A stretch of 64,000 bases of DNA, taken from Cinnamomum chago (lineage: Eukaryota > Streptophyta > Magnoliopsida > Laurales > Lauraceae). The DNA is taken from contig CP142459.1 of NCBI GenBank assembly GCA_038049695.1, positions 71,790,501-71,854,500 on the forward strand, read 5' to 3'. Shown here piece by piece: positions 4,180-60,548 of this stretch. Within the stretch, counting starts at the first letter, position 1, and each line of letters opens with the position of its first letter. The translations under genes and the position numbers were made by a program. The notes beneath the pieces were generated by a model. That model had not been told where the DNA came from. It did not search any database and worked only from the letters and a program-made list of their open reading frames with translations.

Positions 4180-5554
4180 CATTTGCTTGAAAACTAAAAG
4201 ACAAATATGACATTAGGGAGATACTTTAAAACGCCAACACATTCATTGTTGAGTGCTATTGGATATCGCGCGCACGTCCAAAGATCGATCCACTAACTCT
4301 TTAGGTTGATGGTATCACTCTTGATAAGAGAAAAAAAAAATTTAATTAAAAAAGAAGAAGGAAGAAATAAATGCGTCCTCTGGCACAGGCAAATACTAAC
4401 CTGTGAGGAACATTAAACTTTCTGAATTAGAACTTAGAAGATAGCAAAAGATATACATTTAGACTGAGAATTCAAGGAAACCTTCACATTTGACTGAACA
4501 TTGACAAAATAAGCACAAAAGGAAGAAAGAAAGGAACACGAGGATGACTTTTCAAATTTAGCTAGCTGTGAGAAGTTTGAACCATTCATACCTTGATTGT
4601 GATGTTTGCAAGCTCCTTCTAGATTCCTAGACTCTTGATATTCTTAACTCGAGTTGTGATTGTTTGTCAGCTCTTTCTATATTCTTAGACTTTGAGCAAA
4701 ACGACTTTTAGGCCTGTTTACTTGCATAAAATACATAGAATTTAAAGTCGAATGAGCTATGCTCTATTGAAGGATTATTAAAGAGGTGATGGTGGAAGAA
4801 AATATGATAGAAATATAGATGAGACCTTGACTTTCCAAAATATTGAATTACTAGGGCAATTGACAATGGTTGATTATTCATTTACAATCTTCCCTTAATT
4901 CAGTTTTTATTGAAAGGGGAGGATATTTGATGGTCGCTTTTGAATATTCACCTTTGATTTTTCATTTTTAACGACTTAGAAAAATAGAATTTTAGGTATT
5001 CAGTTACATAAAATAGAAGGCCCTTATCGACTGAAAGGTCATAGGACTCATGGGCTCCACTATCTTGGCAGAAGATGATCATTTTTTAACAATACAAATT
5101 ATATCATCTTTCGAAAGTTCAAAGGACTCACGGACATAGCCTTTTCATATCACAGTTCAACACACACGGAAAGCAGCTTGGCTCGGAAAGTTATTGGGCT
5201 GAGTTGATTGGGTGAATCAGTAGTCCTCACATTTCTTTGGAAAATATTGGGATACTTTCCAAGTTCTACAATAAAAAAGATTACTATTATGATAATATCA
5301 TGAACACGGGTTGGATACATATTTGAACTGTTGCAAAATTAACCACACATGTATGGATTTTATTTAATCTTACCTAACTAAATTTAAGTAATCGTTTGCC
5401 ATATATGTTAGTATAGTAACAACATATATTTCTTTTCATTGGTTTAAATTGATTAGTAGCATCACTCAAACCCAAAACCTATTTTCTTTTTTTTGGGTAA
5501 AAAGAAAACCCACAACTTTAAGATTGCGATTGCAAGGACCTTTCACTGTGCCAT
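4180..5554. other. Intergenic, no gene seen
   Basis: AT-rich sequence with no supportable reading frame. A weak inverted pair around 4710 and 5020 (AGGCCTGTTTACTTGCATAAAATA and its partial complement) hints at an old hAT-like MITE, but no target duplication is clear. Confidence 0.4.
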
Positions 5555-55769: not shown

Positions 55770-57766
55770 GATTTGAGATAGACTCCAATCTTATTCATAT
55801 TTTCCTTTTCTTTTCTCTACCACCTTAAAAAAAAAAATCGAAAAAAATTACTCGATTTATTGAAATGTATTAAAATGAAATTTTATTACGTTGAAAATAT
55901 CAGCATCCACTCAATGGAAGAGATTAAAAAAATATTAGGATTGTGTGTGCCAAGTTTGGTCTACATCCGGACTCATTTGGGTATAGTTGGGGGGTAGTTA
56001 GCAATTTTCCAGAGAATTTAGGGAGCTTTTCGTAATTTTAGATTTTTGAGATTATGGTACCGTTGGGTAGATATTTTTAATTCCTAAACTTTAGTCTTCT
56101 ATATCATCTTGATCCGGATCCTAAAACCCCTCAAAATTCAAGCTTGACCCAAAGTCTATTTTAGATAAATTAAGGAATTCTCATTATGCCCCCATCTTTA
56201 TCCATCCGATTCACTCTCTCTTATCTCTTTTCTTTCTCTTTCTTTTATCTCATTCTATTTCCTCATTTGCTACATCTTACTCTCTTTTTATTTGGCAGGT
56301 GTGTAGTGAAACCATACTACATCTTACTCTCTTTTATAATAGGGTATAGATATACAATATAATAATATAATACTAAGTGGGGCCCATGTCTTGCATTTTA
56401 TTGGGCAGGTGTGTAGTGAAAAGGTGCTATACTTTACTCTCTTTTATATAATAGTATATATATATAATATAATAAGGGTGGGCCCCACAACTTGCATTTC
56501 ATTGGGCATGTGTGGAGTAAAAAAACTATAATATAAAATATATATAATAAGGGTGGGCCCCGCAACTTGCATTTCATTGGGCATGTGTGGAGTAAAAAAA
56601 GTATATTTTAAAATATATATAAAAAGGGTGGGCCCCACAACTTGACCACATCTTTCTCTCTTTTATAAAGGTATATAGATTTATTATATAATAAGGGTGG
56701 GCCCCACAACTTGCATTTCATTGGGCATGTGTGGAGTGAATGAAGTATAACATCTTTCTCTCTTTTATAAGGGTAGATAGATAAAAAAAAAAGTATAATA
56801 TAAAATATATAGAATGAGGGTGGGCCCCACAACTTGCATTTCATTGGGCATGTGTGGAGTTAAAAAAGTATATTTTAAAATATATATAATAAGGGTGGGC
56901 CCAACAACTTGACTACATCTTTCTCTCTTTTATAAAGGTATATAGATTTATTATATAATAAGGGTGGGCCCCACAACTTGCATTTCATTGGGCATGTGTG
57001 GAGTGAAAGAAGTACAACATATTTCTCTCTTTTATAAGGGTAGATAGATTTTATAAGAGTAGAAATTGGGAAATTCCCAATATGTCCCCATCTTTATCCA
57101 TATATAAAATACATATATATAATACACATATATATAAGGGTGGGCCCCACAACTTGCATTTTATTGACCATGTGTGCAGTGAAAAAAGTACGTCATCTTT
57201 CTTATAATTAAAATATAAACAATAAGGGTGGGCCCCACAACTTGACTACATTTTTCTCTCTTTTATAAAGGTATATAGATTTATTATATAAGAAGGGTGG
57301 GCCCCATAACTTGCATTTCATTGGGCATGTGTGGAGTGAAAGAAGTACAACATATTTCTCTCTTTTATAAGGGTAGATGGATTTTATAAGAGTAGAAATT
57401 GGGAAATTCCCAATATGTCCCCATCTTTATCCATATATAAAATACATATATATAAGGGTGGGCCCCACAACTTGCATTTTATTGGCCATGTGTGCAGTGA
57501 AAAAAGTACGTCATCTTTCTTATAATTAAAATATAAACAATAAGAGTGGGCCCCACAACTTGACTACATATTTCTCTCTTTTATAAGGGTATATAGATTT
57601 ATTATATAATAAGGGTGGGCCCACAACTTGCATTTCATTGGGCATGTGTGGAGTGAAAGAAGTACAACATATTTCTCTCTTTTGTAAGGGTAGACAGATG
57701 TTATAAGAGTAGAAATTGGAAAATTCTCATTATGTCCCCATCTTTATCCATATATAAAATACATAT

Positions 57767-58432
57767 TGTAAGTGCAAAAATATACTCACAAGATTAGGAT
57801 GCCTTCAAGGACTTACTCAAAGTACCGGAGAAGTAGCTGCGATCTAGTGAACCTGAAAGGGGAGAAGAGAGCGGTCAGAAGACCCTGGCTGAGGGCAGCA
57901 CAGGGCTCTCCGATGCTTAAGTTAGTAGTTGATCGGAGAAGAAAGGGAGGTCTCTGCTTGCATGTATTAGGAATGCCTACCTTATTTTTGGGTCGTCCCA
58001 TACTTTATATGAGAAATTGTTTTGGTGCCTGTGCTAGTGGGCCTCATGATGTGACTAGGGTCTCATCAGCCCACATAGTCATTAATGAGGGTCCATCATA
58101 GCCCTCATTACATTTAATGAGGGTCCGATCAGCCCATACTACATTTAATGCCAGTCACATTGGGCCTGATCTGTTGGCTGCTGAGGTCTCATCGAATCCC
58201 TTTCTTGGGCCCTGTCCCTGATAGGGCTGTGGCCAATGGATGTGATTACATCTCTATGTAGCCGAGACCGAATGAGGCGGTGCGGCCGAACTGGTTGCCC
58301 ACTTCCGATATCAGCAGGATGTGCCGAAACCGAGGCAGCGCCAGGTCTGCGTCCGAGGCTGACGCGCTTTGCAGAAACCAAAATGGGCCCGAAACCAAAA
58401 TAGGATTTGGTTCATGGGACGGTCCCCACACA
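57767..58432 (-). mobile_element. Solo LTR inserted in the satellite
   Basis: A 666-bp non-satellite block starts TGTAAGTGC and ends CCCCACACA. It is flanked by CATAT on both sides (57762-57766 and 58433-58437), a perfect 5-bp target duplication. CTCCGATGCTTAAGTTAG near 57910 relates it to the LTR at 2796-3369 and suggests minus orientation. No internal domains are present. Confidence 0.8.
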
Positions 58433-58786
58433 CATATATATATAATAAATATATAAGGGTGGGCCCCACAACTTGCATTTCATTGGGCATGTGTGGAGTG
58501 AAAGAAGTACAATATCTTTCTCTCTTTTATAAGGGTAGATAGATATAGATATAGATAGATTTTATAAGAGTAGAAATTTGGAAATTCCCATTATGTCCCC
58601 ATCTTTATCCATATATAAAATACATATATATAATAAATATATATAAAGGTGGGCCCCACAACTTGACTACATCTTTCTCTCTTTTATAATGATATAGATA
58701 TAGATTTATTATATAATAAGGGTGGGCCCCACATCTTACATTTCATTGGGCATGTGTGGAGTGAAAGAATTTTAACATCTTTCTCT

Positions 58787-60472
58787 CCTTATATATAATA
58801 GGGGTGGGCCCCACAACTTGCATTTCATTGGGCATGTGTGGAGTAAAAAAAGTATATTTTAAAATATATATAATAAGGGTGGGCCCCACAATTTGACTAC
58901 ATCTTTCTCTCTTTTATAAAGATATAGATATAGATTTATTATATAATAAGGGTGGGCCCCACAACTTGACTACATCTTTCTCTCTTTTATAAGGATATAG
59001 ATATAGATTTATTATATAATAAGGGTGGGCCCCACATCTTACATTTCATTGGGCATGTGTGGAGTGAAAGAATTTTAACATCTTTCTCTCCTTATATATA
59101 ATAGGGGTGGGCCCCACAACTTGCATTTCATTGGGCATGTGTGGAGTTAAAAAAGTATATTTTAAAATATATATAATAAGGGTGGGCCCCACAACTTGAC
59201 TACATCTTTCTCTTTTTTATAAGGATATAGATATAGATTTATTATATAATAAGGGTGGGCCCCACAACTTGACTACATCTTTCTCTCTTTTATAAGGATA
59301 TAGATTTAGATTTATTATATAATAAGGGTGGGCCCCACATCTTACATTTCATTGGGCATGTGTGGAGTGAAAGAATTTTAACATCTTTCTCTCCTTATAT
59401 ATAATAGGGGTGGGCCCCACAACTTGCATTTCATTGGGCATGTGTGGAGTAAAAAAAGTATATTTTAAAATATATATAATAACGGTGGGCCCCACAACTT
59501 GACTACATCTTTCTCTCTTTTATAAGGATATAGATATAGATTTATTATATAATAAGGGTGGGCCCCACAACTTGACTACATCTTTCTCTCTTTTATAAGG
59601 ATATAGATATAGATTTATTGTATAATAAGGGTGGGCCCCACATCTTACTTTTCATTGGGCATGTGTGGAGTGAAAGAATTTTAACATCTTTCTCTCCTTA
59701 TATATAATAGGGGTGGGCCCCACAACTTGCATTTCATTGGGCATGTGTGGAGTTAAAAAAGTATATTTTAAAATATATATAATAAGGGTGGGCCCCACAA
59801 CTTGACTACATCTTTCTCTTTTTTATAAGGATATAGATATAGATTTATTATATAATAAGGGTGGGCCCCACAACTTGACTACATCTTTCTCTCTTTTATA
59901 AGGATATAGATATAGATTTATTATATAATAAGGGTGGGCCCCACATCTTACATTTCATTGGGCATGTGTGGAGTGAAAGAATTTTAACATCTTTCTCTCC
60001 TTATATATAATAGGGGTGTGCCCCACAACTTGCATTTCATTGGGCATGTGTGGAGTAAAAAAAGTATATTTTAAAATATATATAATAAGGGTGGGCCCCA
60101 CAACTTGACTACATCTTTCTCTCTTTTATAAGGATATAGATATAGATTTATTATATAATAAGGGTGGGCCCCACAACTTGACTACATCTTTCTCTCTTTT
60201 ATAAGGATATAGATATAGATTTATTATATAATAAGGGTGGGCCCCACATCTTACATTTCATTGGGCATGTGTGGAGTGAAAGAATTTTAACATCTTTCTC
60301 TCCTTATATATAATAGGGGTGGGTCACACAACTTGCATTTCATTGGACATGTGTGGAGTTAAAAAAGTATATTTTAAAATATATATAATAAGGGTGGGCC
60401 CCACAACTTGACTACATTTTTCTCTTTTTTATAAGGATATAGATATAGATTTATTATATAATAAGGGTGGGC
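58787..60472. repeat. 303-bp higher-order repeat with 606-bp dimer
   Basis: CCTTATATATAATAGGGG recurs at 58787, 59090, 59393, 59696, 59999 and 60302, exactly 303 bp apart each time. In the copy I measured, four GTGGGCCCCAC-bearing monomers are spaced 75, 73, 73 and 82 bp. Copies 1, 3 and 5 have GGAGTAAAAAAAG and CTCTCTTTTAT. Copies 2, 4 and 6 have GGAGTTAAAAAAG and CTCTTTTTTAT. The real unit of the latest amplification is therefore a 606-bp dimer. Confidence 0.93.
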
Positions 60473-60548
60473 CCCACATCTTACATTTCATTGGGCATGT
60501 GTGGAGTGAAAGAATTTTAACATCTTTCTCTCTTTTATAAGGATAGAT

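Follow-up and report, generated by a model that had tools for sequence, protein, structure and literature searches.

The window analyzed here is the 64,000-nucleotide stretch G000:C9:71790501–71854500 of the Cinnamomum chago genome (1.06 Gb in 14 contigs), which formed our search space; it lies near the end of its contig, at 71.8 of 73.3 Mb. Positions within the window are given as w-numbers, and L-numbers denote individual loci fetched from the same genome. On the minus strand, w51644–60551 is occupied by what we read as a whole copy of a non-autonomous Helitron, 8,908 bp long including a 666-bp LTR-like insert. The copy comprises a body (w51644–56203) common to other copies and a 5′-terminal array (w56204–60551) that the core divides into 41 units and that contains 23 B modules and ~25 LTS-like starts. 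The body contains no reading frame of at least 150 aa, and its identity to the closest copies is ~95–98% over the stretches fetched. Elsewhere in the window are a 219-aa frame (w10344–11003) resembling what we take to be an NF-YB histone-fold factor, two further tandem arrays with 152-bp and 339-bp periods (w28511–30589), and reading frames of a Copia-like retrotransposon (w41426–45169), judged by look from their translations.

The ends of the element are those of a Helitron. The 3′ end is CTAG at w51644, followed by T at w51643, and the 5′ end is TC at w60551, preceded by A at w60552; this pairing of a 5′ TC with a 3′ CTRR end is kept in copies, and both window ends recur in dispersed copies with unrelated flanks. 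The 5′ terminus proper (w60541–60551, minus strand) presents the LTS lead-in TCTATCTATCC preceding TTATAAAAGAGAG, while the 3′ terminus (w51644–51680, minus strand) carries a hairpin stem at w51659–51673 shortly before CTAG|T; on folding, the 3′-end hairpin of one family copy gives a 9-bp stem (z −3.35). When the 201-bp 3′ end was searched against the genome, all 40 candidates scored, out of 531 first-look candidates, matched at 90–100% identity, and the exact 3′-end 14-mer AGGGCTCCACTAGT occurs 348 times in the genome versus 5 for its reversed control. Among 30 loci read, 28 3′ ends were located, 27 of them with T as the next base, and the sequence beyond them varies by locus except where a 3′ end abuts a 5′ end. 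The sequence ending at w51644 is the Helitron 3′ terminus of a dispersed family.

The outer border is defined by comparison among copies. All 20 outer array edges inspected lack any array module within 700 bp upstream—for the window's own edge, 160 bp were checked with this set and the remainder by a window-wide module scan—and the set omits loci whose first module is not B or whose edge is ambiguous, among them L050, L064, L042, L054, and L055. Lead-ins at these edges are mostly TATC-like, with L057 and L058 deviating, and comparison of the flanks of all pairs yielded a single weak similarity (40 bp). Given a 3′ terminus shared by a family and an outer array edge that is specific to its flank, the window Helitron therefore spans w60551 to w51644. 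The first-pass annotation had placed the Helitron start at w56350, with the array outside it. That placement was rejected: the module at w56331–56350 (minus strand), which adjoins the body, is the innermost of ~25 end-like modules, and homologous arrays reach outward to a flank-specific edge, so that the array belongs to the element. The same annotation had mentioned neither the 3′ end at w51644 nor the solo-LTR-like insert described below. One observation is counted against the reading as a Helitron: a search with the 5′ flank (39 matches, including the window itself) returned no empty site for the window copy, the 38 other matches all ending at least 109 bp before the insertion point.

Between w56290 and w60548 the array is a tandem of three recurring phrases, referred to as A (CACTCCACACATGCCCAATGAAATG), B (TTATAAAAGAGAGAAAGATG on the minus strand), and core (GTGGGGCCCACC). 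The A module CATTTCATTGGGCATGTGTGGAGT, with up to 5 mismatches, has 25 matches, all on the plus strand at w56284–60507, with none on the minus strand and none elsewhere in the window. For the B module CATCTTTCTCTCTTTTATAA, allowing up to 4 mismatches, there are 23 matches in the array and one outside it, at w49450. The core GGTGGGCCCCAC (up to 2 mismatches) has 38 plus-strand matches in the array and 7 elsewhere in the window, so the core alone is not specific. These counts confirm the recurrence of array phrases reported earlier. The proposal that the units derive from Helitron 5′-terminal sequence, tandemly amplified, likewise holds, as the putative start segment w55901–56360 is similar to array units with E-values down to 2e-15. 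An inner phrase, GGATAAAGATGGGG, is found in the body and, as had been noticed, at four copies in the longer array units. The far end is indeed the more regular: five 303-bp blocks there are 98.3–99.3% identical, versus 89% for the 333-bp period at w56798–57766. A solo-LTR-like insert (TGT..ACA; strand not assigned) at w57767–58432, with CATAT on both sides and borders read by eye, splits the array and is thus younger than the units it splits. When arrays were cut at the core and their units compared, the unit order of the window proved collinear with that of other copies, which miss or repeat blocks. The element accordingly combines several 5′ ends with one 3′ end, the arrangement of tandem Helitrons.

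The most regular part of the array is also the most local. The five 303-bp higher-order units (w58721–60235, minus strand; 98.3–99.3% mutual identity) are accompanied by a sixth block at 84–86% identity. Among the matches listed, of 271, full-length 303/303 matches at 98–100% identity occur in the window copy only; in other copies, matches at that identity cover ~244 of 303 bp at best among those listed, because one 73-bp unit stands there instead of two. In this search and among the matches listed, the fivefold 303-bp block is therefore private to the window copy, and its amplification looks like the outcome of local exchange or slippage.

It had been suggested that the array was a new satellite arising beside the Helitron. 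Satellites are long, transposon-independent arrays; the window array lies inside a Helitron, and as the element's own 5′ region it is found at many loci. Ten 4.2-kb stretches lying upstream of the closest 3′ ends were fetched, and in seven of them (L039 and L041–L046) the array abuts the same body directly, its modules in collinear order. In L040, L047, and L048 the array is not joined to the body in the stretch fetched; array matches lie farther out in the first two, and L048 has one B and one core match. The first 100 of 511 exact B matches fell into 59 clusters on C1 and C2:1–75.4 Mb, 12 of which have an exact same-strand 3′ end less than 12 kb downstream and none one on the opposite strand, against a random expectation of 0.14 (highest of 2,000 trials: 3). 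Eight of the remaining 47 clusters were fetched with ~3 kb downstream and seven contain the body, as do eight of ten further array loci (L077 over 154 bp only). The check for array units without a Helitron, run in part, was thus answered in favor of the association at these loci; L061, L073, and L081 showed no body in the sequence fetched. Another group comprised eleven loci, ten with a 3′ end less than 12 kb away and L059 at 14.7 kb from one; in the ~0.6 kb retrieved past the last match, the body is present in six and missing from L049, L051, L053, L057, and L059. L053 shows no similarity to the window array either.

Further variants accompany these loci. At L001–L004 a short array is backed by a different sequence, and the four are 84–91% alike mutually; lying within 140 kb at C1:4.69–4.83 Mb, they may perhaps belong to a larger tandem duplication. 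At L058 and L052 the array joins the body at base 4846–4848 (element numbering), skipping ~450 bp of body. L056, by contrast with the multiplied arrays, is a single-unit element, and its LTS is the actual terminus. The array loci without a body as fetched (L001–L004, L061, L073, L081, L049, L051, L057, and L059) count against the main reading. The array matches listed elsewhere are nonetheless short clusters, 15 of 18 sampled being joined to the body, and no large free array is among the matches listed genome-wide. A free satellite is therefore unsupported in these samples; as far as sampled, the array appears to be a mobile multi-5′-end region that travels with the element.

The element itself would depend on a partner for its movement. 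The PF14214 profile (RepHel domain) gave 153 genome matches, in open frames of up to 1118 aa, against matches in 0 of 14 control genomes; RepHel genes thus exist in this genome. Four 3-kb RepHel loci (L069–L072) contain neither an A module nor the family 3′ end, with just one weak B-like match at the edge of each of L069 and L072. No array-bearing element with its own RepHel is present among these four loci, which is likewise counted against the main reading.

Taken as a whole, we consider it likely that the window holds a non-autonomous plant Helitron in which tandem duplication has multiplied the element's own LTS. The junctions inside the arrays point to how this may have begun. In about 29 array fragments that include a body start, the break follows one common AATTT. 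Alignment puts it at body base 28, 37, or 38; in L054, L066, and L067 the alignment extended into a later repeat, and the break was read by eye. Because the great majority of body-start fragments break at this one site, one founding duplication is likely. In L050, a body piece inside the array ends near base 167, and L065 and L066 contain a longer repeated body piece; given these other breaks, the array did not come from one event alone. The first ~160–190 bp of an ancestor, from the LTS to body base ~37, may therefore have been rejoined to an LTS, with a few later duplications that would have broken elsewhere. Units of ~70–90 bp would then have been duplicated, diverged, and lost via unequal exchange or slippage—a stage partly visible in the varied array lengths—with the fivefold 303-bp block of the window copy as its putative latest product. 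By its distribution, the array moves together with the element. Finally, transposition from an internal LTS, conceivable because many units are near-complete LTSs, may have given rise to copies with shorter arrays.

Evidence bearing on this last step is mixed. Two terminal modules have perfect (100%) matches among the internal modules of another copy: that of L041 in L042 and that of L063 in L059. Across 18 terminal modules, the best match is another terminal module for 7, an internal one for 3, and a tie for 8; the terminal-best group includes W, C1, L039, L044, and L059, which are long-array copies, so these appear to share one 5′ end, which speaks against internal initiation. A tree was built from the last ~1.5 kb of 30 copies, with five copies classed as long by the span of their array-search matches and L059 paired by assumption with a 3′ end 14.7 kb away, that of L019; in it, the short-array L041 is nested among long-array copies (support of 95/88 and 95/97 at the enclosing nodes and 86/77 for its own group). 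Short arrays were therefore probably derived there, in L041 by a transposition start at an internal LTS or by deletion of the outer part; deletion after insertion would also explain this copy, again to the detriment of the last step. A broader proposal is that the array serves as a bank of alternative origins, RepHel nicking any intact internal LTS: transposition would shift the 5′ end inward, and tandem growth or self-insertion would extend it outward again. We offer this proposal tentatively, as more doubtful than not; if it were true, array length would be inherited and selected for its effect on initiation.

How the first units were multiplied can be approached through complete elements that lie head to tail. 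Exact 3′|5′ head-to-tail junctions number 14 genome-wide, with 0 for the reversed control; after CTAG, 10 continue with TA and 4 with TC. At the ten TA junctions the terminal TC of the second element is thus missing, the outcome expected of insertion at an inner A|T. Two of these ten (C2:5196136 and C2:5214264) are downstream of loci 99.9% alike and may represent one event. A tandem pair at C2:78.99–79.01 Mb has an 8,061-bp period and is 99.3% identical over 3,767 bp. The encompassing region, G000:C2:78989044–79011781 (L045, L046, L060, L017, and L018), holds head-to-tail Helitrons with 3′ ends at 78998219, 79006280, and 79011781, whose 5′ arrays start with a different module type.

Two routes to such an array seem to us about equally plausible for the first steps, each being a possibility short of an even chance. 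The rolling-circle model of Xiong and co-workers, in which a circle minus its 3′ terminator is replicated repeatedly, predicts a single 3′ end alongside many 5′ ends (PMC12628747). The full head-to-tail Helitrons, including the four junctions with TC after CTAG and the 99.3% tandem pair, are consistent with it, as is the common junction, which ties the TC of an LTS to body base ~37, immediately beyond a weak hairpin. That hairpin is equaled or bettered in 24 of 200 shuffles, however, and it was discarded, as too weak, as the cause of the common junction. The array units are also much smaller than truncated elements and of differing types, and the newest expansion, private to one copy, is as well explained by local exchange. 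Under self-insertion, which has been put forward for Fusarium Helitrons (PMC5148889), Helitrons would enter AT sites in the TATC/TATA-rich lead-in of a second copy, and read-through would mobilize a composite with multiple 5′ ends. The 14 exact abutments of 3′ ends on LTS starts, 10 with TA rather than TC, argue for this route, as does the presence in L045 and L046 of another 5′ array ahead of an L041-type start; in addition, TTATAAAAGAG (up to 1 mismatch) lies within 80 bp of 5 of 28 3′ ends, against a background of 40 of 2,342 windows. Yet no 3′-end motif separates units within the arrays read, and most breaks after a body start are one shared junction. For the newest step, the 303-bp amplification, unequal exchange or slippage is favored. 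It is, lastly, very improbable that an independent satellite, not derived from a Helitron, was captured by these elements. L001–L004, L061, L073, and L081, without the family body in the sequence fetched, would fit such an origin, but the units start with an LTS that is the real terminus of L056 and of the inspected edges, and the matches listed include no large free array. A Helitron with an internally multiplied LTS remains our preferred reading.

Annotating the 5′ ends of Helitrons is difficult, and little is known of how they change. A family with a multiplied end, represented in a single genome by single-unit, short-array, long-array, and privately expanded copies, allows a direct test of how rolling-circle transposons choose their start and of how their ends seed tandem repeats. 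The available text of Helitron papers on wheat (PMC13286980), maize (PMC10095026), and poplar (PMC13253262) shows no such array. Within the open-access literature, as far as its available text extends and with subscription papers mostly outside it, we found no family with ~25 LTS-like units, higher-order repeats, and a copy-private expansion.

Elements with several 5′ ends and a single 3′ end have already been described, and the kind itself is therefore known. According to a review, Xiong et al. report tandem truncated Helitrons in 27 plant genomes, many with multiple 5′ ends and a single 3′ end, and propose rolling-circle replication of a terminator-less template (PMC12628747). The tandem plant Helitrons of Xiong, Dooner, and Du (2016), as cited in PMC12628747, PMC6591975, and PMC10095026, resemble the present family in their many 5′ ends, one 3′ end, and occurrence in plants, with several to several hundred repeats; those arrays, as described there, consist of truncated elements and are mostly centromeric, whereas here terminal modules of ~70–90 bp front a dispersed element. 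Helitrons and Helentrons with central satellite-like arrays, as summarized in PMC12628747, are likewise mobile elements with a variable tandem array, but one that is central, while the window array lies at the end and is built from the element's own terminal sequence. For Fusarium, self-insertion has been proposed to explain 5′ duplications of less than 200 bp with one 3′ end, and FoHeli similarly combines short 5′-terminal repeats with one 3′ end at various loci (PMC5148889). According to the portions of that paper available, its repeats comprise the first 31, 65, 73, or 85 nt, present once or combined, in contrast to the ~25 LTS-like starts and higher-order repeats of the Cinnamomum chago element.
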